From an uncultured cyanobacterium (GTDB lineage Bacteria; Cyanobacteriota; Cyanobacteriia; Cyanobacteriales; Geitlerinemataceae), in NCBI GenBank assembly GCA_937899645.1, contig CALCCD010000084.1, positions 1-38,500 of the forward strand: a stretch of 38,500 bases of DNA, in the 5' to 3' direction. The notes beneath the pieces were generated by a model that ran no database searches, was not told the origin of the DNA, and saw only the letters and a program-made list of their open reading frames with translations. The translations under genes were made by a program, and so were the position numbers. Below are positions 1 to 26,921 of the stretch, piece by piece; the first letter of the stretch is position 1; each line of letters begins with the position of its first letter.

Positions 1-135
1 CGCTTCGCGAACGACTCCGCTCAGCCTTCGAGATATCGATTTTGAGGATGAAATTTGGAGTATGCGTTTGCCCTAAGCTCGCGGGACTCGCGGGGGGCGA
101 GAAGTCGGGCTTCTGAAGTTTTCCTGAGATCTGCA
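1..135. other. Non-coding left edge of window
   Basis: No gene is supported here. The stretch lies downstream of the minus-strand haemagglutinin-like gene. A short inverted repeat (AGAAG/CTTCT, 100-104 and 110-114) is present but is not followed by a T-run on the minus strand, so it is not called a terminator. Confidence 0.5.
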
Positions 136-2850: not shown

Positions 2851-3124
2851 GGGCAAGGCAGGGATGGGGAGAACTCGCTCGTGGAGACGAATATTCGGGA
2901 GACCCCCAACTGCGAAAAAAGGTCTTGCCACGCAGGATTTACGGATCGTTCCGGGCTCTCCACTATGCCCAATTCTAACGTTTCTGCGGGGCTCGGCCCG
3001 ATCGCAACAGCGCGCTGGCCCGAGCCCCAAGAAAGTTTACAGAGCAAAATCACTGTTCTCCGTATGGCTTTGTTATCGTTGTTTTCGGAAGATCGCAGCG
3101 ACCAAATCGAGGCCGCGAACGGGA

Positions 3125-4399: not shown

Positions 4400-4455
4400 T
4401 TCAAAACAGAGTCGATGAGCGCTGAGCGTCGTCGTTGGCGTAGCCTCTGCGAGGC
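4392..4455. repeat. Two small palindromes after the dihydroorotase-like gene
   Basis: GACTCTG (4392-4398, overlapping the stop codon) is repeated inverted as CAGAGTC (4407-4413). A second palindrome, GCCTC-TGC-GAGGC, lies at 4443-4455 within a GCGTAGCCTCTGCGAGGC stretch that resembles dispersed cyanobacterial repeats. This is the 114-bp gap between two convergent genes. Neither hairpin has a T-run, so a terminator role is uncertain. Confidence 0.4.
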
Positions 4456-4513
4456 AGATAGTACGGGTTTCGCCAGGAGCGACGATATCGGAACGTAGGG
4501 AACGAACCTGGAA

Positions 4514-5674
4514 TTACTCCCACGGCAGCAGCTTCTTCATCAGCTTGGCAATCCCCAGCTCCACCACCTCCGAATAGCGCAGCTCCCCGCACAGCACCTT
4601 CGACATCAACTGGCTCGCCTTGCGCTTCTGCGTCGCCAGCTTGTACGCCGCGCCGGGAAAACGATACAGCGCCTGCGCCAGCCGCGACGCCCAAGCGTAA
4701 TCCGTACCCCAAGTCTGCTGGATCTGCCGCGTATAGCCCCGCAGCGCCCCAGTTTGCCCGTCTAGCGCTGCTCCGATCGCCGCGCCCGCCTGTAGGCCAC
4801 TGTCGATCGCCGAGCGAATCCCCTCCGCCGTCACCGGATCGGACAGCCCCGCCGCATCGCCCGCCACCAGCGCCCGCTCCGCATTCAGCACGCGATCGCC
4901 CGACCACAGCGCGATCGGGCGTTGCCGCACGTTGGCTTTTTCCGCTTGCCAACCACGCCGCGCCGCGTAGGCCACCAGGCGATCGGCCAGCTCCGGATCG
5001 CCCTCGCCGATAAACGTCGCCGCCCCCAGCGACACCGCGCCCTGCTTCGGGAAGCACCAGAGAAAGCCGCGATCGATTTCCCCCAGCACGAAATCCACGC
5101 GCGGAACCTCATCGGGCGGCGCAGCTAGCTCTAGAGACACCGCACTTCGCACCGTCGGGCGCGGCAACCCGACCCAACGCAGCGCCGTACTGCGCGCCCC
5201 GTCCGCCACGATCGCAAACGCCGCCGTTAGCTCGCCTGCCGGAGTTTTGACGCACCAGCGCCGATCGCCTTCGACCTCCACTAATCTCGCCCCCTTCGCC
5301 GTCACGGGCTCGAACGTCGCGCCCGCCGCGATCGCCTTATCCCGCAGCAGCGCATCGAAGCGATCGCGCCGCACCATCCACATCGCCTGCGCCGCATCGA
5401 GCTGCATCGACACCGGCGCGTCGTCCTTCCAGGCGTAGCGCACGTCGCGCACCACGCAGTCGATCGCGGGCGTCAGGTCGAAGTCCAGCAGCTTTGCCAC
5501 CGCCGGGGACACGCCGCCGGTGCAGATCGGCGGTTGGGTTGGCGATCCGGTCGGCGATCCGGCGCGATCGCCCGCCAGTACGACGACCCGACGCCCCAAG
5601 CTTGCCAGCCGATATGCCGCACTCGTCCCCGCGACCCCCGCCCCGAAAATCACACAGTCAAACTCGCGATCCAT
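4514..5674 (-). CDS. Geranylgeranyl reductase family FAD-dependent oxidoreductase
   Basis: A 386-residue flavoprotein. An N-terminal Rossmann motif (IFGAGVAGTSAAYRLA, residues 9-24) binds the FAD ADP moiety. A later GDAAGLSDPVTAEGIRSAI block near residue 270 is the second FAD motif, in the form used by the geranylgeranyl reductase family, where G(L/F)(I/V)xP.TGEGI is usual. Members saturate isoprenoid chains (chlorophyll phytyl tail, archaeal lipids) or act on other polycyclic substrates. This protein is not close enough by eye to call chlP, which should have its own longer form, so only the family is named. The C-terminus is a basic helix ending MKKLLPWE. The gene follows the pyrH-frr pair on the same strand, but a strong terminator at 5758-5794 separates it, so it probably has its own promoter in the 5675-5757 gap. 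Confidence 0.8.
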   Translation of the reverse strand: MDREFDCVIFGAGVAGTSAAYRLASLGRRVVVLAGDRAGSPTGSPTQPPICTGGVSPAVAKLLDFDLTPAIDCVVRDVRYAWKDDAPVSMQLDAAQAMWMVRRDRFDALLRDKAIAAGATFEPVTAKGARLVEVEGDRRWCVKTPAGELTAAFAIVADGARSTALRWVGLPRPTVRSAVSLELAAPPDEVPRVDFVLGEIDRGFLWCFPKQGAVSLGAATFIGEGDPELADRLVAYAARRGWQAEKANVRQRPIALWSGDRVLNAERALVAGDAAGLSDPVTAEGIRSAIDSGLQAGAAIGAALDGQTGALRGYTRQIQQTWGTDYAWASRLAQALYRFPGAAYKLATQKRKASQLMSKVLCGELRYSEVVELGIAKLMKKLLPWE

Positions 5675-5757
5675 CCTCGCCTCGTAAAAGAATTTGTCCT
5701 CTCGCCGTTTACATCGTTCCGACGCTCTGCATCTGCGTGGTAGCGATAAGCCGACAA

Positions 5758-5794
5758 AAATCCCCGCCTAGATCGAACATCTGTGCGGGGATTT
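5758..5794 (-). terminator. Rho-independent terminator of pyrH-frr
   Basis: A perfect 10-bp inverted repeat, AAATCCCCGC (5758-5767) and GCGGGGATTT (5785-5794), with a 17-nt loop. Read on the minus strand the stem is followed by a T-run (complement of 5756-5760). It lies 43 bp after the frr stop codon. Confidence 0.8.
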
Positions 5795-5837
5795 CTCGTT
5801 GATGCGCGATCGCGACTTGCCGCGACCCGAACGCAAC

Positions 5838-7137
<1,300 letters not shown>

Positions 7138-13360: not shown

Positions 13361-13651
13361 ATGAACAGACAGACGATCGAGAACGCGCTCGACCAGCTCG
13401 ACTTGCCGCTGCTCGTCGATTCTTGGCAGATGAAAATCGGCCTCGATCTCGACGAAGAGCCCGCCATTTGGGTCTGGGTCATTCTCACGCGCAACGACAC
13501 CGATTTCCCGACGCGCGAAGGCATACGCCGACAGGTGGAAGAAGCGATCGCAGCAGTTACGACGACGGAAACTTTACTCGGCACGGTCGCCCCTTGGGTA
13601 TTCGTCAACTTTCGCACTGTCGATGAGGTTCGAGAGCTTGAGCTGGCCTAG
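13361..13651 (+). CDS. Small acidic protein of unknown function, partner of HEPN-like gene
   Basis: A 96-residue protein (MNRQTIENALDQLDLP...). I do not recognise a named family. It is acidic, has a short amphipathic N-terminal helix, a strand-rich centre with PAIWVWVILTRND, then a helix (TREGIRRQVEEAIAAV) and a final strand and helix with PWVFVNFRT, an alpha/beta arrangement with no signal peptide or membrane segment. It overlaps the next gene by 29 bp, so the two are surely co-expressed. The overlap and the HEPN-like partner suggest a toxin-antitoxin-like or regulatory pair, but that is inference. Confidence 0.7.
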   Translation: MNRQTIENALDQLDLPLLVDSWQMKIGLDLDEEPAIWVWVILTRNDTDFPTREGIRRQVEEAIAAVTTTETLLGTVAPWVFVNFRTVDEVRELELA

Positions 13652-14147
13652 AGATCTCCTAGAGCAAGCCCGCCACCTCGCAAATCGCGAGCGCCAGCGC
13701 CCCAAGCAGGTCAGCCTGCGGCGAGCCGTGTCGGCGGCTTACTACGCGCTGTTTCACTTGCTCGTCGATGAAGCTTCGTCCTTTCTCATACGCGGCCAAG
13801 GCCGAACGCCGCTGCGCCAATGCCTGAGTCGTGCCTTCTCTCATGCGGATATGCGAGCAGTCTCGAAAGGATTCAGCAGCGGCAACATTTCCAATAAGAT
13901 TCGTCCCGCGCTTGACGGTCAGGCGATCCCGTCGGAACTTTGCAACGTTGCCAGAATGTTTGTTGCCCTGCAAGAAATACGCCACAAAGCAGATTACGAC
14001 CCCGCACAGTCGCTGACGCGGCAAGAGGTCAACAACCTCGTCGATCGCACGGAACAGGCATTTCGAGACTGGCAAGCCGTACGCGGGACGCTGCAAGCGG
14101 ACGTGTTCTTGACGGCGTTGCTCGCCCAGAAGCACATGCAGACATAG
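13623..14147 (+). CDS. HEPN-domain-like protein
   Basis: A 174-residue, mostly helical protein. The block RRAVSAAYYALFHLLVDEA (about 33-51) and the C-terminal EIRHKADYDP (around 136-145) are the two typical landmarks of HEPN-type proteins. HEPN proteins are often RNases in toxin-antitoxin and defence systems, with an R-x4-6-H active motif. I cannot place that motif with confidence here, so catalytic activity is open. ATG at 13623 lies inside the end of the preceding small gene (29-bp overlap). The gene is convergent with hemW, whose stop is 7 bp away. Confidence 0.75.
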   Translation: MRFESLSWPRDLLEQARHLANRERQRPKQVSLRRAVSAAYYALFHLLVDEASSFLIRGQGRTPLRQCLSRAFSHADMRAVSKGFSSGNISNKIRPALDGQAIPSELCNVARMFVALQEIRHKADYDPAQSLTRQEVNNLVDRTEQAFRDWQAVRGTLQADVFLTALLAQKHMQT

Positions 14148-14153
14148 CGCGAT

Positions 14154-15431
14154 TCACGGGTCTTCGCCCTCGATCGCGTTGAATAAATCCGACAGCACCG
14201 AGTTCGACAGCAAGAAGCCTTCGGGATCGGTGAGGCGAACCCGATCGCCTACCACCGCGATCGCGCCAGACTTCTCATATCGCGCCAGCACGGCCTCGAC
14301 TCGCTCCCAAGCTGGCCCGCCCGTCAGCGCCAAAATCTCCGATCGCAGCAGCCCGCGATCGAGCCCCGCCGAAGTCCGAAACTTCAACATCACCGATTCC
14401 AGCGCCAGGTCAATGGGCGCGATTGCCTCAGCGTTCGAGACTCCGTCGCGATCGCAAAATGCCGCTAGCCAGTCCCCGTAGTCCTGTCGTTTGCGCGGCC
14501 TCGAGACCCGCTGACCGCCCACATAGCTGGTCGCGCCCTGGCCGAAGCCGTAGTACGGGCGATTGTGCCAGTAAGTTAGGTTGTGGCGGCACTCGCGCCC
14601 CGGTCGGGCGTAGCTGCCGATTTCGTAGTGGTGGTAGCCCGCCGCAACTAGGCGATCGACGGCGTGGCAAAACATCTCGGCGGTGGCGGCTTCGCTGGGC
14701 AGCGGTGCGGTTCCAGGCTCGTAGTAGCGATCGAAGACGGTTCCGGGCTCGACGATCAGGTCGTAGTAGGCGAGGTGCTGCGGCGAAATCTCCAGGGCGC
14801 GATCGAGCGTCGCGTCCCAGTCCTCGGCAGTTTGGTGCGGCAACCCGGCCATCAGGTCGATGCTGAAGTTGTCGATCGCGCTGGCGGCGAGGATTTCTAG
14901 GGCCGTATCAATTTCGTCGGCGGTGTGCGATCGGCCGATCGCCTGCAAGATGCGATCGTCAAAGGTCTGGATACCGAGGCTGATGCGGTTGACGCCTGCC
15001 GCCGCGATCGCGCTCAGCTTGGCGAGGTCGAACGTGCCGGGGTCGATTTCGATCGAGATTTCCGCGCCGGAGGCGATGCCGAACTGGCGTTCGAGCGTTT
15101 CGAGAATGCGGACGATTTGCGCGGCAGTCAGCAGCGAGGGCGTCCCGCCGCCGAAAAATACAGTTTTGAGCGATCGACCCCGGCTCGGCGTTGCGGCAAT
15201 TTCCCGGCAAAGCAGATCGACGTAGGTTTGCACCGCCTGGGAGTTCGAGCCGTTTTTGCGATCGCCGATAACCGACACGGCAAAATCGCAATAAAAGCAG
15301 CGCCGCCGACAGAAGGGAATATGCAAATAGGCCGCGACGGGCGGGGCGCAGGCGCGATCGCGCCAGATCGATGTAACCGAGCGATCTGCGGCGATCGCCC
15401 CCGAATCGGCCCCACAAGTCATCGAGCTCAC
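14154..15431 (-). CDS. hemW: Radical SAM HemW-like protein (coproporphyrinogen oxidase-like)
   Basis: A 425-residue radical SAM protein. Cys41, Cys45 and Cys48 in FCRRRCFYCDF form the CxxxCxxC cluster. The Phe two residues after the last Cys, where true HemN has a fourth Cys, points to HemW rather than oxygen-independent coproporphyrinogen III oxidase. Other family blocks: FFGGGTPSLL, the RISLGIQTF strand, the SIDLMAGLPHQT motif and GQGATSYVGGQR. HemW proteins are thought to bind and deliver haem rather than oxidise coproporphyrinogen. The aerobic enzyme HemF is encoded separately at 30019. Start at GTG 15431 overlaps the stop of the upstream GNAT gene by 4 bp (GTGA), so the two are translationally coupled; ATG 15422 is an alternative. 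Confidence 0.88.
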   Translation of the reverse strand: MSSMTCGADSGAIAADRSVTSIWRDRACAPPVAAYLHIPFCRRRCFYCDFAVSVIGDRKNGSNSQAVQTYVDLLCREIAATPSRGRSLKTVFFGGGTPSLLTAAQIVRILETLERQFGIASGAEISIEIDPGTFDLAKLSAIAAAGVNRISLGIQTFDDRILQAIGRSHTADEIDTALEILAASAIDNFSIDLMAGLPHQTAEDWDATLDRALEISPQHLAYYDLIVEPGTVFDRYYEPGTAPLPSEAATAEMFCHAVDRLVAAGYHHYEIGSYARPGRECRHNLTYWHNRPYYGFGQGATSYVGGQRVSRPRKRQDYGDWLAAFCDRDGVSNAEAIAPIDLALESVMLKFRTSAGLDRGLLRSEILALTGGPAWERVEAVLARYEKSGAIAVVGDRVRLTDPEGFLLSNSVLSDLFNAIEGEDP

Positions 15432-16543
15432 AGCGCCCGCTCGTACATGCTGTAGGTCTTGAGCACCTTCGCGCCCGACGCCTCGGTGATATTGCGCGAC
15501 GCCTTGTTATCCGCCCAAATCCAGGACAGCTCGGCGTTCGTGTAACCCTGCTTCTGGCCGCCCTGCATCCCCAGGTAGATCAGCGCCAAGGGAACCATCT
15601 TGCGGCGAAACTCCGGCAGCGCGCAGATCGCCAGCACCCGCGCCCGATCGATCGTCCGGCGATACCAAAGAAACTTCAAAATCCCCCAAATATTCAGCCG
15701 CCCGTCAACTTTCTTCAGCGCGATATTGTAGTCCGGCAGCGCCATGAAGAAGCCCACCATCTTGCCGTCGTACTCGGCGATCGGAAAAATCTCCGGATCG
15801 ACGAGCGTTTTGAGCTGTTGCGCCGACTCGAAAAATTCTGCCTCGGTGCGCGGCGACGAACTCCAGCTCGCCTCGAAGGCGTCGGTAAATAGTCGATAGA
15901 GGCTGCGGACATCTTCCTCGAAGCCCTCGCCCTTGGTACGAATCGGACGGAACGTCACCCCGGCTTTAGTGGCGATTTTGTAGCCGCGATCGAAGCGATC
16001 GTCGAGCGGAATCATCGGGAAGTCGTAGGCGTAGGCGTCCTTCGCCCGCGCGAAGCCGTAGCGCTCCCAGGCCGCGCCGTAGTAGGCCGGATTGTAGGGC
16101 ATCATCAGCATCGGCGGCGACTCGAACCCTTCGGACAAAAAGAGGCAGTTGTTGTGGGTGTAGAGGTCGATCGGGCCGCGTACGGTCGTCATCCCCTGCG
16201 ATCGCAGCCAGTCGCAAGCCGCATCGAGCAGCGCGGCAATCGCCGCCTCGTTGTCGATGCACTCGAAGTATCCCAGCAGCCCGACGTTCTGACCTTCGCG
16301 ATCGATTAACCGCCGGTTCACCGCCGCCACGACCCGCCCGACGGGCTTTTCACCCGCCACGACAAAGGCTTGTAGCGTCCCGTAGCTGCGGAAGCTATTT
16401 TCCGGCGAGAGCTGCTTCGCCAGATCGCTACGGATCGGCGGAACCCAAGGCGATTCGGGTTCGTAGACGCTCCAGGGTACGTCGAGAAAGCGATCGAGTT
16501 CGGCAGCGTTGGCAGGGTCGATCGCGCGAACGGAAAAAGACAT
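15428..16543 (-). CDS. GNAT-like N-acyltransferase family protein (YghO-like)
   Basis: A 371-residue protein resembling the double-GNAT proteins annotated N-acetyltransferase or YghO-like. The first half has RAIDPANAAELDRFLDVPW, then AFVVAGEKPVGRVVAAVNR and LLGYFECIDN, a typical GNAT strand-turn region. The middle has TTVRGPIDLYTHNNC and MMPYNPAYYGAAWERYGF. The second half has IAEYDGKMVGFFMALPDYN and the C-terminal NAELSWIWADNKASRNITE, the end of the GNAT fold. Some members of this broad family act as bacterial ceramide synthases, N-acylating a long-chain base, which matters because an alpha-oxoamine synthase gene lies directly upstream. Substrate is not decided by the sequence. It overlaps hemW by 4 bp and is separated from the oxoamine synthase by a palindromic repeat. 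Confidence 0.75.
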   Translation of the reverse strand: MSFSVRAIDPANAAELDRFLDVPWSVYEPESPWVPPIRSDLAKQLSPENSFRSYGTLQAFVVAGEKPVGRVVAAVNRRLIDREGQNVGLLGYFECIDNEAAIAALLDAACDWLRSQGMTTVRGPIDLYTHNNCLFLSEGFESPPMLMMPYNPAYYGAAWERYGFARAKDAYAYDFPMIPLDDRFDRGYKIATKAGVTFRPIRTKGEGFEEDVRSLYRLFTDAFEASWSSSPRTEAEFFESAQQLKTLVDPEIFPIAEYDGKMVGFFMALPDYNIALKKVDGRLNIWGILKFLWYRRTIDRARVLAICALPEFRRKMVPLALIYLGMQGGQKQGYTNAELSWIWADNKASRNITEASGAKVLKTYSMYERAL

Positions 16544-16562
16544 GGCAAACGGCCGGAAGGAC

Positions 16563-16672
16563 TATCGTTCCCATGCTCTGCGTGGGAATGCAGCGAGCGA
16601 CGCTCTGCGTCACGGGATCCCACGACGCAGAGCGTCTGCGGAGGCATTCCTACGCAGAGCGTAGGAACGATA
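16563..16672. repeat. Large imperfect palindromic repeat element
   Basis: A 110-bp element between two minus-strand genes. The outer arms TATCGTTCC (16563-16571) and GGAACGATA (16664-16672) are perfect complements. Moving inwards, CATGCTCTGCGTGGGAATGC on the left mirrors GCATTCCTACGCAGAGCGTA on the right, and the centre repeats CGACGCTCTGCGTC against GACGCAGAGCGTCTG. The whole can fold as a long hairpin. The GCTCTGCGT-GGGAATG sequence is a dispersed repeat type found in several bacterial phyla. It may stabilise or attenuate the transcript, or be a non-autonomous mobile element. Confidence 0.8.
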
Positions 16673-16690
16673 TTGCTAGAACCGCGTAGA

Positions 16691-17980
16691 CTACGCGCTC
16701 ACCGTCTCGCGCGCCGTGGTCATCGCGTCGCGCACCGTCACCAGTGCCGCCACCAGACGATCCATCTCCTCCTTCGTGTGCAGCGCGTTTACCGTAATCC
16801 GCAGGCGCGGCTTAGCGATAAACCAAATCGCCGAGACCCAGATACCGTGTTCGTGCATCAAACGATCGCAGAACTCCTTCGGATCCAGCTCCGACGGCAG
16901 CACGATCGGCACGACGTTGGTCACGCCCGACGGCTCGAACTCGTGTTCGATCAGCTGCGCCCGCAAGTAGCGCGCGTTGCCTTGCAGCGTATCGACCAGC
17001 TCGGGGGCCTTGCGGACTTCACGGATACTTTGCAGCGCCGCCGCTGTCGTCGGGGCGGGCAGCGCAATCGTCCCGATCGAAGTCGGCGACGCCGTCAGCA
17101 GGTCGTTAAACTCGGGGCTGAAGCTGCTCAGCGCCGCACCCGCCGAAGCCGCAAACTTCGAGAACGTGGTCATCACGATCGGCTCGACACCGCGATCGAG
17201 CACGTCCTGAGGCGTCATGTTGTAGTGCTCGTAGACGCCACGCCCGGTCTTGCCGATCGCACCACTCGCGTGGGCTTCGTCCATCACCAGCACGCTACCC
17301 GGATACTCGGCCATCACCTCCAGCATCTCCGGCAGCGGCGCGATGTCGCCGTCCATCGAAAACACCGCATCGGCAATCAGCAGAATGCGATCGCCTGGCT
17401 TAGCGTACCGCTTCAGCTTCCGCGCCAGGTCGCGCGTATCGTTGTGACGGAAAGCCTTGACGCGGACTTCGGGGCTGTTGCTAAAGACCTTGCCCGAGCG
17501 GTTGTTGGCATTCGTAATCGCCGAGATGATGCATCCGTGGTTGAGGATGTCGCTCATAATCAGCGTTTCGCGCGTGTGCTGGAAGCCCGGAACCGGGATC
17601 GCCAGATGGCAGAATGCATCCATCAGCGCCTGCAAAGCCATCCACGCATTCAAGAACAGGTGCGTGTGCGGCAGGTGCTTGAACTCGGAAATCTCTTTTT
17701 CGAGCTGGCGGTGCAGGTCGATGCGACCGCTGAGCGCTTCGCAGGAGCTGTTAGACGTGCCGTATTGAACGATCGCGTCGATCGCCGCCTGCTGCACGTT
17801 TTTATTTTGAACCAACCCGAGAACGTCGTTGGTACAGAACGTCAGCACCGTCATTTTCTTGCCGCTCGCAACCTCTTCGATATCCACAAGGTTGCCACGC
17901 CGATTTCCATGGCCGACATACTCGTCCGGGTACAACCCGTTCGCGTATATTTTTTGCATGTACTCTTTGACGACTTCCAC
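16691..17980 (-). CDS. Alpha-oxoamine synthase family PLP enzyme (SPT/KBL/BioF-like)
   Basis: A 429-residue fold-type I PLP enzyme of the alpha-oxoamine synthase family, which condenses an amino acid with an acyl-thioester and releases CO2. All main active-site residues are present: His148 in SDILNHGCIIS (ring stacking), Asp234 and His237 in VMDEAHASGAIG, and the Schiff-base Lys275 in TTFSKFAAS. The glycine-rich GTSNSSCEALSG segment and the C-terminal RITVNALHTKEEMDRLV match the fold. It departs from classical BioF and KBL in these loops and has a longer N-terminus, so serine palmitoyltransferase-like or CAI-1-synthase-like chemistry is possible; the substrates are unknown. GTG at 17980 is preceded by GAGGGG. 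The GNAT-like acyltransferase follows on the same strand, and a Rieske oxygenase precedes it. Confidence 0.85.
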   Translation of the reverse strand: MEVVKEYMQKIYANGLYPDEYVGHGNRRGNLVDIEEVASGKKMTVLTFCTNDVLGLVQNKNVQQAAIDAIVQYGTSNSSCEALSGRIDLHRQLEKEISEFKHLPHTHLFLNAWMALQALMDAFCHLAIPVPGFQHTRETLIMSDILNHGCIISAITNANNRSGKVFSNSPEVRVKAFRHNDTRDLARKLKRYAKPGDRILLIADAVFSMDGDIAPLPEMLEVMAEYPGSVLVMDEAHASGAIGKTGRGVYEHYNMTPQDVLDRGVEPIVMTTFSKFAASAGAALSSFSPEFNDLLTASPTSIGTIALPAPTTAAALQSIREVRKAPELVDTLQGNARYLRAQLIEHEFEPSGVTNVVPIVLPSELDPKEFCDRLMHEHGIWVSAIWFIAKPRLRITVNALHTKEEMDRLVAALVTVRDAMTTARETVSA

Positions 17981-18301
17981 TAGCGTATTCCCCTCAATTA
18001 GTTAGTTGTTGCCAATCACCGGCGTGCTGCGAGCGAGCGAGCCCAGTCTAATTTTGCCGTCACCATAGCGTTTGAGGCCGTAGGCTAGCAAGTTCTCTGG
18101 CACAGTCGCCGCCTGTGCTAGAGCAGAAATCGACTAATATACGAGATGCGCGATTGCCGTCAGGAAAACGACACCTCATCGGCGTACTCAGGACTCGCTC
18201 GAAGACCGAGTTCAGACATTAGCAAAAGTGCCTATCGCCACTAATTCAACCTGTCCGAATCAAGATTTCCAGACTTAGCAGCCCCCTCGCTTCCATCGGC
18301 T
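17981..18301. other. 321-bp gap between oxoamine synthase and Rieske oxygenase genes
   Basis: No coding region is supported. The only signal is a possible minus-strand promoter at 18137-18164. No terminator-like hairpin with a T-run was found after the Rieske gene, so readthrough into the oxoamine synthase gene is possible. Confidence 0.5.
18137..18164 (-). promoter_or_regulatory. Possible promoter of the oxoamine synthase gene
   Basis: On the minus strand CTGACG (18164-18159) and TATATT (18142-18137) are spaced by 16 bases, a fair match to a sigma-70 promoter. The leader would be about 150 bases long. Seen only as a sequence match. Confidence 0.25.
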
Positions 18302-19423
18302 TCAGTTATGAATTCGAGACGGCTCGGACTCAGCTTCCTGGCGCGATGGTTCCACCTCGGAAGGTTTTTCCTCGGTCTCGGACTGCAGGTAGTGCTCGTA
18401 CTGCTTGACGATCGTCCGCTGTAGAGCCAGGATTGCGGGGTTGACTTCGATGTAGCGGCGCTTGCGATTACGCAGGTAGTTAAGCTGCTCGCTTTCCATC
18501 ATGCCCACGTCCTGATCGAGGAAACGCTGGAACAGAACGCGCTCGACGAAGAACACGAGCGGCTTTTTAATAACGGACAGCAGCCACTGGGGCAGCCGAA
18601 TTTTCAGGAAGAAGAGCGCGAACGATCGCGTTTCGGTGGGGCTGACGGGTAGCCGCATCAGATGAATCGACGAAACCCCTTCGAGGGAGCTGTAGTAGTG
18701 CGGATAGCGGTAGCGCACCGAAATCACGCGGGATGTCACCTCGTCCGCCGTTTCGGCAATGCCGAGAAATTTCGCCATCTGCCCCTTGTAGGACACTTGG
18801 TAGTCGGCTTTCACGAGGCCGTCGCCGCGCTGAAGGTCGAGCAGTACCGGATCGAACCAGCCCTGAAGGTCTTCGTGGAGAAAGCCGTGGAACACGTCCA
18901 TCGCATTCTCGTTGGCGATCGAGAAGTGCGCGCCAAAGTGCCCGGTCACCGGAATCAACAACCAGTCGTCATTTTCGTACTCGGGCACTTCCGGCGGGGC
19001 GCAGGCGTCGGCCAGCGTCGGATCGCCGGGAAAGACCCAAACGATGCCGTACTGCTCGCGCACCGGATAGCTGCGTGCCTTGGCGCAGGGCAGCTTTTGC
19101 TCGGGCGGGTAGTAGGGAATTTCCACGCAGTCGCCATCGCCGTTGAACTTCCAGCCGTGGTACGGGCACAGGAGGTTGTCACCATCGAGCTTGCCTTTGT
19201 GCAGCTCGACGCCCTTGTGGGGACATGCGTCTTCAAGGGCACGCACGTTGCCCGCACTGTCGCGGAATACAGCCAGCGGCTGCTGCCAGACCATCACGGG
19301 AACGATCTTTCCGGGCTTGAAATAGTGCGACCAACCGAGGGGATACCAGTGGTTGGGGTTAATGCCGGTTTCGCGAATATAATTCTGAACGCTCTGACCT
19401 GTAAGTTGCGTTGCTAGCTTCAT
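18302..19423 (-). CDS. Rieske non-haem iron oxygenase
   Basis: A 373-residue oxygenase. An N-terminal Rieske domain binds a 2Fe-2S cluster through CPH (about 67-69) and CPYHGW, with the usual spacing. The catalytic domain carries the 2-His-1-carboxylate site in NENAMDVFHGFLHED, with Asp and two His. The order and the C-terminal hydrophobic stretch (around LPQWLLSVIKKPLVFFVERVL) recall the pheophorbide a oxygenase/Tic55 group, which sits at membranes, but a clear C-terminal redox CxxC is not seen, so no plant-type name is given. The C-terminus is a charged tail. The ATG at 19423 is set by an excellent Shine-Dalgarno GGAGGT five bases upstream; a GTG one codon earlier would be too close. Substrate unknown. 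An electron-donor reductase is not in the window. Confidence 0.88.
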   Translation of the reverse strand: MKLATQLTGQSVQNYIRETGINPNHWYPLGWSHYFKPGKIVPVMVWQQPLAVFRDSAGNVRALEDACPHKGVELHKGKLDGDNLLCPYHGWKFNGDGDCVEIPYYPPEQKLPCAKARSYPVREQYGIVWVFPGDPTLADACAPPEVPEYENDDWLLIPVTGHFGAHFSIANENAMDVFHGFLHEDLQGWFDPVLLDLQRGDGLVKADYQVSYKGQMAKFLGIAETADEVTSRVISVRYRYPHYYSSLEGVSSIHLMRLPVSPTETRSFALFFLKIRLPQWLLSVIKKPLVFFVERVLFQRFLDQDVGMMESEQLNYLRNRKRRYIEVNPAILALQRTIVKQYEHYLQSETEEKPSEVEPSRQEAESEPSRIHN

Positions 19424-19796
19424 CACCGACCTCCAATCGCTGCGAGTCTATGCGGGACGTCCGCCGTGCGAATAGCATGCGACATGCGCCAATTTATCGA
19501 AACCATAGTCAAATATAGTAAAGGACTTTTAACATTCTGGTATTTTCGCCAGGATGTTTGCGGTCGATCGCGCTCGGATGAGGGTTTCCACCGGGGCCGG
19601 TCTGAGTTTGGCCGATATCCGCTGATATCCTTAGTGTTGCGCGCATGTTCGATGGCTGCCGCGTCGCTGGGCTCGACCGGGAGGTCAACCCGGTAGACCA
19701 CTGCCATGACCAGTCAAACGACCAGTCCGATGTCTAGTCCGGACGCAAGATACGCCTGCCGCTCGAATTTCCGTACTTGTTGCCTAGGAGCGCTTT
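19424..19796. other. 373-bp divergent intergenic region, Rieske oxygenase and fraC
   Basis: No gene is supported. It holds a minus-strand -10-like TATATT at 19512-19517, a small hairpin ACCGGG/CCCGGT (19676-19694), and two direct copies of GACCAGTC 12 bp apart (19708-19715, 19720-19727) upstream of fraC. The fraC ribosome binding site AGGAG is at 19786-19790. Confidence 0.5.
19507..19518 (-). promoter_or_regulatory. Possible -10 region of the Rieske oxygenase gene
   Basis: The minus strand reads CTATATTTGACT, identical over 12 bases to the -10 region before pyrH. The TATATT at 19512-19517 would give a leader of about 80 bases. No convincing -35 box is seen. Confidence 0.3.
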
Positions 19797-20330
19797 ATGC
19801 TGCCGGTCGTTATACCGCTGCGTTTATTTCTCAGTCAACTGTTTTGCATCTCTATGGGGTTGGCGATCGAGGCGAGCGTACTCTCGAAGCGCGCCGAGCT
19901 TCCCCGTCAGGTGGCGTTTCACTATAGCCTCGTGGCCAATGTGGTGGCGATGTTCGCAGGCTGGGCCGCGATCTTTGCCGTGCAGGAATTTTTCTTGCGA
20001 GGCGTGCGCGGGCAGCAGGTGCTGAGCTACATATTTTCCGGGGCGTTTATTACTGAGTTCGCCCTCGTGCCGACTCAAGTGGCCTGTATGACGCTGGCGA
20101 TTGTCTTCTTCGTCGGTGGATTTTTGCTCAAGCCCTATAGCGTTCGCATGTTGGAGCAGTTCGATCTCGTACCGCCCCTGCCAGAGATGCAGGTCGGTCG
20201 CGACGACCCGCGCTTGAAGGCTTTGGTCGAAGCGCGGCTGCGCGAGCGGGTGGCAGAGGCGATGCAGCTCGGCCATATCGCCAGCACGATCGCGACGATG
20301 TTATTTTTCGCGCTGCTAATCGCATGGTGA
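19797..20330 (+). CDS. fraC: FraC-like filament integrity protein
   Basis: A 177-residue membrane protein, close to the usual FraC size of about 180. It has an N-terminal hydrophobic segment (VVIPLRLFLSQLFCISMGLAI), two further membrane segments (NVVAMFAGWAAIFAV and VACMTLAIVFFVGGFLL), a cytoplasmic loop with PPLPEMQVGRDDPR, and a C-terminal membrane helix (TIATMLFFALLIAW). ATG 19797 follows AGGAG by six bases. In Anabaena, FraC sits at the septa between cells and, with FraD, is needed for filament integrity and cell-to-cell exchange. The identification rests on length, topology and above all the order fraC-fraD-fraE here. Confidence 0.78.
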   Translation: MLPVVIPLRLFLSQLFCISMGLAIEASVLSKRAELPRQVAFHYSLVANVVAMFAGWAAIFAVQEFFLRGVRGQQVLSYIFSGAFITEFALVPTQVACMTLAIVFFVGGFLLKPYSVRMLEQFDLVPPLPEMQVGRDDPRLKALVEARLRERVAEAMQLGHIASTIATMLFFALLIAW

Positions 20331-20360
20331 CGCAGTGGCGAGGCGGCGTCGGTTCGTCAG

Positions 20361-20383
20361 ATGGCCGGATGGCCGGATGGCCG
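20361..20383 (+). repeat. Short tandem repeat between fraC and fraD
   Basis: ATGGCCGG is repeated almost three times in tandem (20361-20368, 20369-20376, partial 20377-20383) in the 132-bp gap. Probably slippage-prone; no function is evident. Confidence 0.6.
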
Positions 20384-20462
20384 AACTGTCGGCGACCGGT
20401 GCGCGATCGATGCGCGGGTTTGACGTGATTTACGTGATTGGTAGGGGCGCGAGGTAACTGCT

Positions 20463-21569
20463 ATGGAATCGGCTGTCGATCGGCTCAAGTCGTTGTTTGA
20501 ATCGCTGGCACCGCCGCGTTTGGTGTCCTGGCAGAGCATGTTTCTGTTCGGGCTAGCGATGTGGGTGCTGTCGGGCGTGGTGATGCTGGCCGATCCCGAG
20601 CGCACCCTCGATCTATTTTTGCTTCAGCGCTTTGGCTGGGTGTTTATCGCGGGCGGGATCGTCTGGCGTCAGGCTCTCGATCCGGTGAGGATTTGGGGCT
20701 TTCCGGTCGGCGCGGTCGCGGCTTCGCTGGTGCTGGTCAACCTGATCTTCGAGGACGAGGTGGGGCAATGGCGGCAGTCGGGCTTTATCGCGCTGCCGAT
20801 TTTTTCCGGACTGCTCGTCGCCATGTCCTATTTCCTCTCGACATCCGGGCGCTGGCGCGTCCCCAACCGCTTCGAGCGTCTCAAGTCGATCGTCGCGCTG
20901 GGCATCGGCCTGGTGCTGGCCTGCTGGCTGAATTTTTACTTCATCACCCAAGATTGGCTGGTGCAGTATCCGGGGCTGTGGAACGCACGCATCGACAACA
21001 GCAACTTTATGGCCCTGGTGAAAGACCCACGCCAGGACTGGGGCCGCGATTTGGTTGCCGAGGTCGATTTTCTGCTCTACGACAAGTTTCACGGTCGTCC
21101 CTGGCCGCAGATCGAACGGGCGCTCGAGGAGTACGGCAGCCAGCCCGAGTCGCTCGAACGAGACCTACGCGACAGTGCCGGTCGCAGTTTTTTCTTCAAG
21201 CTGCCTTTTCGACGCGAGCCGGACTGGAACGTTACGCTCACGACCAGCGGCGATGGCAATCCGTCCTATCTCATCAACACGCGCGTGACTTGGGAGTCGC
21301 CGCTGTTTTTCGACGATCGCGACTTCACCATCGTCCGTAGCTGCGAAATTGCCCGCGCGCCGCTGCCCCTAGAACTATTTAACGAGTCCACGCAAACGGG
21401 CCTCATTTCCTGCAACACCAGCCCGGAATTTATCTTCCGAGAGGAGCCGGAACTCGAGGAGGCCAGCACCGACGCAGACGCCGAGACTCCAGACGCTCCG
21501 ACGGGCGACACCCAAGACAACACTCAAAACGACACCCGGAACAATACCCAGGAGGAAAACGGCTCGTGA
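20463..21569 (+). CDS. fraD: FraD-like septal protein
   Basis: A 368-residue membrane protein with five predicted membrane helices in the first 165 residues (for example FLFGLAMWVLSGVVML and IVALGIGLVLACWLNFYF), then a soluble domain of about 170 residues (DPRQDWGRDLVAEVDFLLYD through LISCNTSPEFIF). The C-terminal tail is acidic and rich in Asp, Asn and Thr. In Anabaena, FraD has five membrane helices and a large periplasmic domain and forms part of the septal junction plug/cap structure. The topology here agrees. ATG 20463 has GAGGT a few bases upstream. Its stop overlaps the fraE start (GTGA), so fraD and fraE are translationally coupled. Confidence 0.75.
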   Translation: MESAVDRLKSLFESLAPPRLVSWQSMFLFGLAMWVLSGVVMLADPERTLDLFLLQRFGWVFIAGGIVWRQALDPVRIWGFPVGAVAASLVLVNLIFEDEVGQWRQSGFIALPIFSGLLVAMSYFLSTSGRWRVPNRFERLKSIVALGIGLVLACWLNFYFITQDWLVQYPGLWNARIDNSNFMALVKDPRQDWGRDLVAEVDFLLYDKFHGRPWPQIERALEEYGSQPESLERDLRDSAGRSFFFKLPFRREPDWNVTLTTSGDGNPSYLINTRVTWESPLFFDDRDFTIVRSCEIARAPLPLELFNESTQTGLISCNTSPEFIFREEPELEEASTDADAETPDAPTGDTQDNTQNDTRNNTQEENGS

Positions 21570-22429
21570 GCGATCGCCCGTCTTCTAAAGCCGCGATCGA
21601 GTCGCCAGACTGGTCAGACGCGTCTGCTTCCAAGGGGCTTGGCAGTGCGGCGGGGTTCTCGCACCTCTGGGCGATCGGGGCTAACACCTTCCGCGAGGCG
21701 ATCCGCAGCCGCGTGCTCTACGCCGTCGGGATTTACGGTCTGGTGCTGCTGGCGGCGATGCTAGCGCTGCCCAGGATTGCCGGTGGCGCGCAATTTAAGA
21801 TGTTGCTCGATGTGGGACTGGCGGCGATGGAGGCGATCGCAGTGGCGATCGCGTTGGTCGCGGCCTCGAACGCCATCGATCGCGAAATCGACAAGCGCAC
21901 GATCTTAGTCGCCCTCTCGAAGCCGATCGCGCGAGCGGAGTTCGTGCTGGGCAAAGTCTGCGGTCTGGCGGCGGTGCTGGCAGTCGCAGTCGCGGCGATG
22001 CTGGCGCTGTTTGCCGTGGCGCTGTGGGTCCAGCAGAACGATCTCGGGCTGGAGCTGGCGGTGCTGTCGGCGGGCTTTCTCTGGCTGCGGCTGGTGCTAG
22101 TCGTGGCGATCGCGATCGGCTTCGGCACGTTCTCGAGCGGGTTGCTGGCGCTATTGCTGAGCCTGACGCTCTACCTAATCGGCAACCTCAGTCAGGATCT
22201 AATTCGCATCGGCAAGGCCACAGAAAATGCCGACCTCGAGCGCCTGACGCGGATGCTCTACCTGGTGCTGCCCGACTTCTCGCGGCTCGATATCAAAAAC
22301 GACGCGATCTATGGGTTTGCGGGCCTGCCCGATGCAGCGACGCTGGTCGGAAACGTCGCCTACGGAATTTTTTACACGGCTTTGGTTTTGGCGATCGCCA
22401 CCGGAATTTTTTCGCGCCGACAGTTCTGA
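21566..22429 (+). CDS. fraE: FraE-like ABC-2 type permease
   Basis: A 287-residue ABC-2-type membrane permease. The soluble N-terminus leads into ANTFREAIRSRVLYAVGIYG, the typical amphipathic entry helix. About six membrane segments follow. The segment DREIDKRTILVALSKPIARAEFVLGK is the conserved cytoplasmic loop of ABC-2 exporters that contacts the ATPase. In Anabaena, FraE is the permease encoded with FraC and FraD and is needed for filament integrity. No ATPase gene is adjacent. GTG at 21566 overlaps the fraD stop by 4 bp and is preceded by AGGAGG. The stop codon lies inside a tandem duplication. Confidence 0.78.
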   Translation: MSDRPSSKAAIESPDWSDASASKGLGSAAGFSHLWAIGANTFREAIRSRVLYAVGIYGLVLLAAMLALPRIAGGAQFKMLLDVGLAAMEAIAVAIALVAASNAIDREIDKRTILVALSKPIARAEFVLGKVCGLAAVLAVAVAAMLALFAVALWVQQNDLGLELAVLSAGFLWLRLVLVVAIAIGFGTFSSGLLALLLSLTLYLIGNLSQDLIRIGKATENADLERLTRMLYLVLPDFSRLDIKNDAIYGFAGLPDAATLVGNVAYGIFYTALVLAIATGIFSRRQF

Positions 22430-24182: not shown

Positions 24183-26921
24183 ATGGCCGAAAATCTGGGT
24201 CTCGATCTGAAGAAGCCGATCTCGGTTTGGAATAAGCCGCTGAAGGTCAACTTCAAGGACTTGTTCAAGGCTGTGGGCAAGCTGGGGGTGGATGCCGCGA
24301 CGGGAAAATGGGAAGGCGTCGCGAAAGACACTGTCGAGACGCTGGCGGCGGTCGGCCTCGGGAGCAATACGCCGGAAGAGCAAGCCTGGGCGCTGATTTA
24401 CAACGCGCTGGCTCAGGCGGTGGCGAGCGTGGTGGGCGACAGTCGGACGCTGATGCGGAAGCTCCCGGAGAACGTGGAGGCGACGATCGAGGTGCTGGAC
24501 TTCTCGCTGGAGGCGACGGAGCTGGCGCTGTCGCGCGATTTGTTCGAGTATCCCGAGCGGCTGGCGATCGTCGGCGCGGTGCGGGCTCCGCTGCGGCAGT
24601 TTTTGGAAGGGATGGGCGTTGATGAGGTGCAGGCCGACAGCCTGAGCAGTCGCCTGCCGGGGTATTTTGCCTACGCGCTGAATCGGGAGTGGCGCAAGAA
24701 CGGCTCGAGCTACGGCGAGATCTCGACTGCCATCGATACGCCCTTTACAAAGGCGCGCGAGCGGGTGCAGGGCTGGCGGCTCTATCGAACCTGGCTGCAG
24801 CAGAAGATCCAAGAGCCGATGCTGTCCGAGGCGTTTGGTCTGGAGGACGTGTACGTTCCGCTGCGGGGCTACCGGCGCGAGAAGCGCGAATCGGATGAGG
24901 AAGAGTTTCGGCGTGACGCATCCCGAGGGGAATATGCTCGCGTGGTGGTGGATATCGCGGAGGATTTACGGCGGTGGTTGCGCGAGGCGAACAGAAACGA
25001 TGCCATCCGGATTCTAAGCGGTGGCCCCGGTTCGGGAAAATCGTCGTTTGCGAAGGTGTTCGCGGCGCAACATGCGACAAGTGGGGCGTTTCCGGTGCTG
25101 TTCGTACCGCTGCATCAGTTAAGGCTGAGTGGCGATCCAATGCAGGCAATTGTGAATTTCATAGATGGCGACAAAGACCTTCAGGAAAATCCACTCGATC
25201 CAGGCACTGCAAAGCTGCCACGACTGTTGGTGATTTTCGACGGATTAGACGAGCTTGCACTACAAGGCAAGCTAGCGAAGGAAGTAGCACGAGAATTTGT
25301 GCGCGAAATCCGTTCCATTGTCAAAAGTGACTTCAATCGCGAAAGCGCTCGTCTGCAAGTGCTGTTCACCGGGCGGGAAGTGGTAGTGCCGGACTCGTTT
25401 AAAGACCCGCGACAGGTGCTGCACGTTTTGCCGTATTTCGTGCCGGAAGAAAAGCGCAAGAGAGAAGACGGCGAACCCTATGAGGATGCAGAAAATCACC
25501 TCGGCTGCGACCAGCGCAACACGTGGTGGTCGAAATACAGCGCGGCGACCAAAGGCACGTATCGGACGATGCCCGCAGAGCTACATCGGGAGAATCTAAC
25601 GGAGATTACGGCGCAGCCGCTGCTGAATTATTTGGTGGCGCTGAACTTTATGCAGGGCAAGCTGACGCTCTCTGACAAAACAAACCTGAATACGGTCTAC
25701 GCCGACTTGCTGAATGCGGTGTACGACCGGGGCTACGAAGACAACAAGCACGCCGCGATCGGCGATATGGAGCGCAAGCATTTCGTGCGGGTGCTGGAAG
25801 AAATTGCGCTGGCGGCATGGCATGGCGACGGGCGCACGACAACTATGGCGGAAATCGAGCGACACTGCGAGAACAGCGGCTTGAAGAGGCTTTTGGAAGT
25901 TTTTGAAGAGGGCGCAAAGGCCGGAGTGACGCGGCTACTGGCGGCGTTTTATTTCCGGCAAAGCGGCGTGCAGGGCAACGATCGCACGTTTGAGTTCACG
26001 CACAAGAGTTTTGGGGAATATCTGACGGCCTGCCGAATTGTCCGGGCGATCGAGCGAATTCAGAAGCAGCTCGATCGGCGCGAGGAAGATATGGAGGAGG
26101 GCTGGGACGAGCGGCAGGCGCTGCTGCACTGGGCGGAGGTGTGCGGGCCGACTCGAATTGACATGTATCTGCTGCATTTTTTACGCGACCAGGTGGCTTT
26201 GCAAGATGCTGAGCGAGTCGGGCAGTGGCAGCGGACGTTTGCCCATCTGATCGAGGTGATGCTGCGGCAGGGGATGCCGATGGAGAAGATCGAGCCACAG
26301 TTACGGTTTCAGCAGGCCAATCAGTGGGCGATTCATGCAGAGGAAGCGTTGCTCGTGGTGTTGAGCGCTTGCGCGAGTGTGACTGGAAAGATTTCAGAGG
26401 TGAATTGGCCGAGTTTGGAGATATTTGGCACTTGGGTTAAGCGACTACAGGGACAGCGGACTGGCTCATCCGAGAGTGTTGCTTCTCTGATGAGCCTCGA
26501 CCATCTCAAGCTGGGCAGGATGACTCTACTTTTCCAGGATCTTCAAAAAGCGAACCTTCGAGAGGCAGATCTGAGAGGAGTGTATCTTCAGCAAGCGAAT
26601 CTTCGGGGAGCAGATCTTCGGGGAGCGAATCTTCAGGGAGCAGATCTTCTGGAGGCGAACCTCCGGGGAGCAGATCTTCGGGGAGCAGATCTTCAGCAGG
26701 CGAATCTTCAGAAGGCGAATCTTCAGCGGGCAGAGCTTCTGGGGTCAGAGCTTCGAGGTGCATATCTTTGGGGAGCAGCTCTTCAGCAGGCGGATTTTCG
26801 GGGGACAGACCTTCTCGGTGTTAGCTGGGACGAAGAGACCAACTGGGAAGATGTTCGAGGTTTGGAGACAGCGCACAACGTCCCCGACAAGCTGAAACAG
26901 CAACTGGGCTTACCTGACTAA
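24183..26921 (+). CDS. NACHT NTPase with C-terminal pentapeptide repeats
   Basis: A 912-residue STAND-type ATPase. Residues 1-250 form an N-terminal region I do not recognise, helical, starting MAENLGLDLKKPISVW. The NACHT domain begins near 270: Walker A GGPGSGKSS (280-288), Walker B LLVIFDGLDEL (348-358), and the later TGREVVVP sensor region and LTEITAQPLLNYLVAL helix. A winged-helix/helical part follows (EFTHKSFGEYLTACRIV near 600, typical of NACHT proteins). Residues 790-879 are 18 pentapeptide repeats (A-N/D-L-x-x), a right-handed quadrilateral helix probably used for sensing or binding. Bacterial NACHT proteins are proven antiphage NLR-like proteins in several cases, with the C-terminus as sensor; defence is an inference here. 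Base composition in 25.1-25.5 and 25.9-26.5 kb is visibly more AT-rich than in neighbouring genes, hinting at transfer. Confidence 0.9.
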   Translation: MAENLGLDLKKPISVWNKPLKVNFKDLFKAVGKLGVDAATGKWEGVAKDTVETLAAVGLGSNTPEEQAWALIYNALAQAVASVVGDSRTLMRKLPENVEATIEVLDFSLEATELALSRDLFEYPERLAIVGAVRAPLRQFLEGMGVDEVQADSLSSRLPGYFAYALNREWRKNGSSYGEISTAIDTPFTKARERVQGWRLYRTWLQQKIQEPMLSEAFGLEDVYVPLRGYRREKRESDEEEFRRDASRGEYARVVVDIAEDLRRWLREANRNDAIRILSGGPGSGKSSFAKVFAAQHATSGAFPVLFVPLHQLRLSGDPMQAIVNFIDGDKDLQENPLDPGTAKLPRLLVIFDGLDELALQGKLAKEVAREFVREIRSIVKSDFNRESARLQVLFTGREVVVPDSFKDPRQVLHVLPYFVPEEKRKREDGEPYEDAENHLGCDQRNTWWSKYSAATKGTYRTMPAELHRENLTEITAQPLLNYLVALNFMQGKLTLSDKTNLNTVYADLLNAVYDRGYEDNKHAAIGDMERKHFVRVLEEIALAAWHGDGRTTTMAEIERHCENSGLKRLLEVFEEGAKAGVTRLLAAFYFRQSGVQGNDRTFEFTHKSFGEYLTACRIVRAIERIQKQLDRREEDMEEGWDERQALLHWAEVCGPTRIDMYLLHFLRDQVALQDAERVGQWQRTFAHLIEVMLRQGMPMEKIEPQLRFQQANQWAIHAEEALLVVLSACASVTGKISEVNWPSLEIFGTWVKRLQGQRTGSSESVASLMSLDHLKLGRMTLLFQDLQKANLREADLRGVYLQQANLRGADLRGANLQGADLLEANLRGADLRGADLQQANLQKANLQRAELLGSELRGAYLWGAALQQADFRGTDLLGVSWDEETNWEDVRGLETAHNVPDKLKQQLGLPD
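26550..26819 (+). repeat. 15-bp tandem repeats encoding pentapeptides
   Basis: Eighteen in-frame 15-bp units encode the pentapeptide repeats. Several are nearly identical in DNA: GGAGCAGATCTTC recurs, giving a run of AGATCT sites. Such similarity above the protein level suggests recent expansion and a chance of change in copy number. Confidence 0.9.

Follow-up and report, generated by a model that had tools for sequence, protein, structure and literature searches.

Among the closest described counterparts of the genes considered here is the bacterial ceramide system Spt-bCerS-CerR, known from Caulobacter and from the spt/yghO genes of Escherichia coli BL21. In Caulobacter, the published model places N-acylation before reduction (PMC11087976). 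The yghO gene of E. coli has been paired with CC_1154, one of five Caulobacter genes required for dihydroceramide, and its product has only been suggested as a possible N-acyltransferase (PMC9386255). Its neighbours in strain BL21 encode a fatty acyl-AMP ligase (FAAL), a short-chain dehydrogenase/reductase (SDR), an acyl carrier protein (ACP) and Spt. We analysed a 38,500-nucleotide stretch of DNA from an uncultured cyanobacterium of the Geitlerinemataceae (contig CALCCD010000084.1; hereafter the window), in which genes for a Rieske oxygenase, an alpha-oxoamine synthase (AOS) and a YghO-like tandem GNAT protein follow one another. Like the Spt-bCerS-CerR system, the set to which these genes belong combines an AOS, a YghO-family GNAT and an extended SDR, which are often clustered. 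We propose, with a probability of about 0.68, that these three proteins may be the core of a ceramide-like N-acyl aminoalcohol lipid pathway, encoded by a fixed gene set in a minority of cyanobacteria.

The three genes are present as the first-pass annotation had described, and all lie on the minus strand of the window. They encode a Rieske non-heme iron oxygenase of 374 residues (18302-19426; PF00355, E 6.7e-24), an AOS of 429 residues (16691-17980; Aminotran_1_2, E 1.5e-31) and a tandem GNAT of the YghO/bCerS family of 371 residues, the proposed N-acyltransferase (15428-16543; PF00583, E 3.1e-6). The span initially given to the cluster, 14154-19423, holds these genes, except that the Rieske frame runs three bases further, to 19426. 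The Rieske and AOS genes are 321 bases apart. The 147 bases between the AOS and GNAT genes (16544-16690, minus strand) contain a palindromic extragenic repeat, read directly from the sequence, with inverted GGAATG/CATTCC and CGCAGAGC elements. The window forms contig C84 of a 4.55-Mb genome (G000), and its gene content is cyanobacterial (FraC, FraD and Ycf48).

The proposal of a ceramide-like pathway is supported by the co-occurrence of the core genes. In an even draw of 244 genomes across the phylum, the AOS (E<=1e-100), the full-length GNAT (57-65% identity, the query itself aside) and an SDR (E<=1e-70) were each found in the same 20 genomes, which represent 16 genera and 12 families. At these thresholds the other 224 genomes contained no AOS, close GNAT or SDR. 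Of the first-look candidates, nine per genome were scored for the SDR and at most seven or eight for the AOS and the Rieske protein. Fisher's test gives a p of about 1e-29 for this pattern, a value that ignores relatedness. In two of the genomes (G066 and G086) the genes lie on separate contigs or more than 100 kb from one another; in two others (G097 and G173) each of the three has a contig to itself. Because the genes co-occur even where they are unlinked, the association is not a by-product of linkage, and these counts also rule out a chance neighbourhood. A set of 59 relatives gave the same picture: the GNAT (at least 54% identity), the AOS (at least 67%) and the SDR (at least 57%) were found in the same 30 genomes, from 14 families, although one of them (G002) has a GNAT divided between two frames and only a fragment of the SDR (55%). 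Three families (f1, f11 and f14) are mixed, with carriers beside non-carriers, and every genome in them has either the full trio or no core gene. One genome, G017, has a partial GNAT match of 31%, and the non-carriers G015, G037 and G057 have SDRs of 33-34%.

The AOS belongs to its superfamily by every feature expected of a fold type I pyridoxal phosphate (PLP) enzyme, namely the stacking His, the Asp, the second His and the Schiff-base Lys. These residues (His148, Asp234, His237 and Lys275), listed as complete at first pass, are invariant in 21 cyanobacterial AOS and also in a 25-sequence set that includes other phyla. In a tree of 65 rows, for which 21 were taken from the 38 'other' rows and 19 from the new clade, that clade (18 cyanobacterial rows plus one further sequence, L181, discussed below) stood on its own with support of 100, outside the serine palmitoyltransferase (SPT), KBL, ALAS and BioF groups. 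Members have two insertions of about 11-12 residues around His148 and the lysine motif TFSKFA-ASAGA, and a C-terminal WFIAKPRLR replaces the PPATPAG...LR or PPTVPAG...LR loop. The predicted structure (pLDDT 90.1) has AOS structures of all types as its best PDB matches, and AlphaFold with Foldseek did not discriminate among them, since ThAOS/KBL, SPT, ALAS and BioF score alike. By sequence, the top PDB match was the Sphingobacterium SPT (121.7 bits), with KBL close behind (115.1 bits). The AOS therefore belongs to a deep and mainly cyanobacterial clade, for which SPT activity on L-serine and a long-chain acyl thioester is a candidate function. A different AOS type lies inside open frames of 1157 residues in two relatives (G007:C1:2009751-2010785 and G004:C4:2153745-2154779); the G007 copy (L241) pairs with L240 near the SPT side of the tree.

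The GNAT had been called YghO-like, and the comparison bore this out. The window protein matches E. coli BL21 YghO over its full length, near end-to-end (30% identity, E 8e-43), and the GNATs of 19 relatives match it with E-values from 1.6e-43 to 4.9e-55. In the GNAT tree, which is unrooted and has several long branches, the cyanobacterial proteins form one clade (support 97/97, or 99/98 with the L181 sequence). Its sister group includes sequences from E. coli, Sphingomonas, Roseomonas, Diaphorobacter, Rubrobacter, Streptomyces and Acidisoma; eight homologues fall outside both groups, six of them from elsewhere in the phylum and the other two, both short, from G017 and G066. The separation from bCerS that the first-pass annotation had named as a counter-argument was not seen, and the protein stands on the YghO/bCerS side of the family tree. 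The structure predicted for it is a tandem GNAT fold (pLDDT 81.6, with one poor segment at 127-150), and Foldseek returned tandem GNATs with N-myristoyltransferases lower in the list, a result that is uninformative on the acyl acceptor. In a plasmid collection the window GNAT matched 44 records, at least 24 of which carry an AOS/Spt gene nearby (within about 12 kb, except for one pair at opposite ends of its record), as counted from the rows seen in partial lists and from the regions opened. On a Shinella sp. plasmid (L274, 6104-13153) a YghO-family GNAT gene has neighbours that encode a ThiF-type adenylyltransferase and a metallophosphoesterase, which points to another role in the family, and no annotated AOS was seen within 14 kb of the Tunicatimonas homologue. 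Because these two stand without a visible AOS, the family is not confined to ceramide synthesis. The Prochloron didemni genome (G055) has a second, distant GNAT (30%) on contig C182.

The third core gene was reported as missing at first pass. This holds for the window, where no SDR reductase lies beside the core genes, but not for the genome, which has an ortholog on another contig (G000:C123:9907-10854, 58% identical to the query). We compared the neighbourhoods of 20 hand-chosen genomes among the 30 carriers; the window's own AOS is absent from its row in this comparison, in which a longer antisense open reading frame was taken. In 13 of these 20 neighbourhoods an extended SDR gene adjoins the GNAT gene or lies within 1.4 kb of it. 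The best NCBIfam model for the cyanobacterial SDR is HpnA (202-218 bits, cut-off 368), followed by SdmB. HpnA is also the best model for the CerR proteins of E. coli and Sphingomonas and for the SDRs of Rubrobacter and Streptomyces, but these four cluster apart from it with support of 100/99, in a tree that is small and has long branches. Two of the three cyanobacterial SDR paralogs that we tested exceed the HpnA cut-off.

The Rieske protein contains the motifs CxH...CxxH and D-x2-H-x4-H, which we take to be the Rieske cluster and the iron site, respectively. It is a remote relative of the sterol C4 oxygenase SdmA, its best NCBIfam model, which it matches with 237 bits, far under the cut-off of 600. 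Its gene (E<=1e-100) is found in 14 of the 244 genomes, all of them among the 20 carriers. Among the 59 relatives it is present in 20 of the 30 carriers, although broken in G038 and interrupted in G055. The sterol C4 demethylation pair SdmA/SdmB likewise consists of a Rieske oxygenase and an SDR of the HpnA/SdmB kind. This raises the question of whether the Rieske protein and the SDR are a tailoring pair for sterols (or hopanoids) while the AOS and GNAT are a separate matter. SdmB is the second-best model for the SDR of the window's genome (181 bits, again far under 600), and a working SdmAB is described for the cyanobacterium Calothrix sp. NIES-4105 (PMC10202945). However, the SDR tracks the AOS and GNAT without exception, whereas the Rieske protein has no close ortholog in 10 of the 30 carriers, and here the partners of the two genes are an AOS and a GNAT. 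A strong match to squalene epoxidase (PF08491) was found in only two of the 59 genomes (G054 and G055; 92 and 104 bits). The remaining PF08491 matches reach at most 36 bits, with about 20 in the window's genome; the low Pfam cut-off is passed by 47 of the 59 genomes and also by the controls, E. coli and Caulobacter. We think a sterol pair improbable.

Two further proteins follow the core set across the 59 relatives. All 30 carriers, the window's genome (G000:C76) among them, have a protein of the fatty-acid-hydroxylase superfamily, compared with 6 of 29 non-carriers. An MFS protein (E<=1e-70) is present in 27 of the carriers and in none of the 29 others, with only 40-43% identity in G000, G001 and G040.

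A lack of neighbourhood in relatives, which the first-pass annotation had named as another counter-argument, was not seen either. The AOS and GNAT genes are close neighbours in 19 of the 20 neighbourhoods, the contig ending in the 20th, and a Rieske gene, whole or broken, is beside them in 15. A second view comes from 42 named loci of this AOS clade. Many of these end at contig ends, and the two sets overlap, as some named contigs are from the same genomes as the G-numbered ones. The GNAT gene is present in the fetched stretch of 27 of the 42 loci and in 22 of them follows the AOS gene after 5-545 bases; in the other five (L165, L167, L174, L175 and L186), which are left out of the gap figures, it is several kb off or on the opposite strand. 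Where the SDR gene is downstream (15 loci), the distance between the GNAT and SDR genes is -4 in four cases and at most 88 in nine. Among the matches listed for named loci are the AOS of Baaleninema simplex PCC 7105, Prochloron didemni, Leptolyngbya sp. PCC 7375, Lyngbya confervoides, Nostoc sp. WHI, Calothrix rhizosoleniae and Stenomitos frigidus. The complete core set lies within the fetched stretch in Prochloron, Leptolyngbya sp. PCC 7375, C. rhizosoleniae and Stenomitos (cut off); in Baaleninema the SDR gene is on another contig, and the stretches fetched show no GNAT gene for L. confervoides and no SDR gene for Nostoc sp. WHI. Prochloron didemni (L147/G055) is an ascidian symbiont, and in it the AOS, GNAT and SDR genes are present and the Rieske frame is interrupted.

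DevA/DevC-family genes, which recall the heterocyst-glycolipid exporter DevBCA, occur close to the core genes in four of the 20 neighbourhoods and in six of the 41 cyanobacterial-type named loci (with one genome common to both). They are also found in L181, a contig labelled as a gammaproteobacterial metagenome-assembled genome, which carries at 3-5865 SDR, AOS (57% identical) and GNAT genes together with DevA and DevC genes. This set outside the cyanobacteria is the result of either a transfer or a mislabelled bin. The resemblance to DevBCA is limited: the two cyanobacterial DevC-type proteins tested fall under the cut-off of 290 bits (153 and 155), the L181 protein exceeds it (295), and the family has no match among the chosen genes of the window.

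Several observations weigh against our proposal. The AOS falls under the cut-off of every curated AOS model. The Spt profile comparison suggested at first pass brought none of the three SPT models to its cut-off (166/500, 153/640 and 119/670 bits), and the highest-scoring NCBIfam model was bioF (220 of 426 bits). The stem of the AOS clade measures 2.21 changes per column, its placement is not with SPT, and approximately unbiased (AU) tests reject none of the three groupings compared (SPT p 0.148, BioF p 0.303 and KBL p 0.112). The window GNAT is sister to the Spt-linked clade, not inside it, and that sister group also holds proteins from Shinella and Tunicatimonas and the second G055 (Prochloron-type) protein, all without a visible spt. 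Distant or partial GNAT matches (24-33% identity) occur in 16 of the 224 non-carriers; therefore, the GNAT family alone is no marker of the pathway. The SDR is not closest to known CerR: BLAST gave E-values of 1e-54 to 6e-38 for HpnA-like paralogs, 3e-14 to 2e-19 for the CerR proteins of E. coli and Sphingomonas, and 2e-30 to 9e-24 for the Streptomyces SDR. Because it is nearer to the cyanobacterial HpnA-like paralogs than to the CerR group, it appears to be CerR-like by context, not by descent. The incomplete distribution of the Rieske protein counts here too, and no ACP was matched near the core genes of the named loci at E<=1e-6. The first-pass interpretation, an N-acylated oxoamine product, is nevertheless largely borne out in kind, and the reductase it lacked has been added; a sphingolipid proper as the product and hydroxylation by the Rieske enzyme are candidates only.

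The AOS scores also bear on whether the enzyme is simply a BioF or KBL that has diverged, and the neighbouring GNAT unrelated to it. The bioF model ranks first, and the AU tests keep both groupings. The clade lies inside neither group, so that the grouping with BioF or KBL which would have spoken against the first-pass idea was not found, although kinship with neither is excluded by the AU tests. Against a BioF or KBL function, the cyanobacterial BioF clade is represented in the window's genome by another gene (G000:C13, 34% identical to the AOS), at least one AOS-family match was found in 58 of the 59 relatives, and neither biotin nor threonine metabolism explains a strict co-occurrence with a GNAT and an SDR. 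We consider this explanation very improbable.

The choice of amino acid is a different matter. It is possible that the set uses glycine, alanine, cysteate or another amino acid, in which case its product would not be a sphingolipid proper but a lipid of the sulfonolipid or 1-deoxy type, or else a specialised metabolite that is secreted. The PPATP-type loop matters for SPT specificity, and the cyanobacterial AOS lacks it and has insertions around the PLP-stacking histidine. The enzyme is also about equally far from all AOS types, and a cysteate-C-fatty acyltransferase (28eh, 97.9 bits) is among its PDB matches. Conversely, retention across 12 families suggests a general rather than a niche role. 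This possibility, which we hold to be a serious one at somewhat less than even odds, overlaps with our proposal of a ceramide-like pathway, which leaves the amino acid open.

Comparison with the Spt-bCerS-CerR system brings out how the cyanobacterial set differs. Its AOS lies outside the Spt clade, its GNAT is a sister lineage and its SDR is HpnA-like, not CerR-like. No ACP partner was seen, and a Rieske oxygenase and a fatty-acid-hydroxylase protein are added. The same order and direction of AOS, GNAT and SDR genes is seen on plasmids of Rubrobacter radiotolerans and Streptomyces sp. NBC_01001. Unlike the cyanobacterial proteins, the plasmid AOS fall with Spt (SH-aLRT 96) and the plasmid SDRs with CerR (100/99, long branches), and in the plasmid stretches seen no gene is annotated as Rieske. 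On the Streptomyces plasmid (L252, 7026-11552) the AOS, GNAT and SDR genes and a gene with a condensation domain each overlap the next by four bases, so that a ceramide-type core adjoins a peptide-synthetase-like gene.

Based on these comparisons, we propose a model in which each reaction, substrate and location is put forward from the gene identities, the protein families, the AOS catalytic residues and the strict co-occurrence of the core three. The AOS, whose fold, family and catalytic residues are in place, would form a 2-amino-3-ketone by condensation of an amino acid and a fatty acyl thioester. The YghO-family GNAT may then N-acylate this aminoketone, as bCerS does in Caulobacter, and the HpnA-like SDR, which is encoded elsewhere in the genome and tied to the other two by genetic association, may reduce the ketone to an alcohol. 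This order of steps matches that published for Caulobacter (PMC11087976). The Rieske oxygenase and the fatty-acid-hydroxylase-superfamily protein could add hydroxyl groups, and a DevA/DevC-type ABC exporter or the MFS protein, encoded near the genes in relatives, might move the product outward. More tentatively, we hypothesize that a subset of cyanobacteria makes N-acyl aminoalcohol membrane lipids of a previously unrecognised class, and that the pathway was assembled partly independently of known sphingolipid synthesis: its AOS would be a new subfamily, its acyltransferase a lineage sister to bCerS and its reductase a recruit from the HpnA branch, with Rieske-type hydroxylation and DevAC-type export.

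The remaining genes around the core are best described separately. The GNAT gene overlaps hemW, which encodes a radical SAM heme chaperone (14154-15431, minus strand; TIGR00539, 274 bits, above cut-off), by four bases, in line with the link made at first pass. We do not include hemW in the pathway, and it belongs to no shared gene family across the neighbourhoods of the 20 relatives. Promoter-like sites (3 in the window compared with 1.8 in shuffles) and terminator-like sites (8 compared with 6.3) are within about one standard deviation of the shuffled values. Divergent from the Rieske gene, genes for a FraC-like protein (177 residues), a FraD-like protein (368 residues) and an ABC-2 permease stand in a row on the plus strand (19797-22429); presumably this is a fraCDE-like filament-integrity operon. 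FraC is above its Pfam cut-off and under the NCBIfam one (69/100 bits), as is FraD (109/400). Further along the plus strand, 24183-26921 encodes an NLR-like protein of 912 residues with a NACHT N-terminal helical domain 3, a NACHT domain and pentapeptide repeats, possibly a defence protein. Two small overlapping genes (13361-14147, plus strand; 96 and 174 residues) have no Pfam match and resemble, by eye, a nucleotidyltransferase/HEPN-type pair.

We know of no genes for ceramide-type lipids in cyanobacteria before this work. The first-pass statement that sphingolipids are not normal in cyanobacteria needs a qualifier, as ceramides are reported from Scytonema julianum and Moorea producens, for which, by the account of PMC8895605, no genetic basis has been reported. 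The Moorea sample that gave mooreaside A was collected by hand in the sea (PMC6272925), and its true producer is uncertain because of this field collection. Neither species is among the matches listed for the 80 named loci. In Nostoc punctiforme, the single AOS is described as a BioF homologue that gave no SPT product in E. coli, and no sphingolipids were found (PMC8895605); we infer that this protein is of the cyanobacterial BioF-clade type, like G000:C13. We found no other genetic work on sphingolipids in a cyanobacterium than this study (PMC8895605). A Black Sea survey describes Spt-like proteins in 38 phyla, and word searches of its main text find cyanobacteria named only in the reference list (PMC11334938). 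Among the papers listed in searches of the open-licence part of PubMed Central, none describes the cyanobacterial gene set. The set considered here is a second AOS accompanied by an acyltransferase and a reductase of its own, and the three occur together in 20 of the 244 sampled genomes.

These findings turn the open question of ceramide-type lipids in cyanobacteria into a testable choice of strains and genes, such as Baaleninema simplex PCC 7105 and Leptolyngbya sp. PCC 7375. The Rieske oxygenase may be a new kind of lipid hydroxylase, and the set would exemplify a ceramide-like route with a reductase of possibly separate recruitment. If our proposal is true, the new lipid class could give a genetic basis for the ceramides reported from cyanobacteria.

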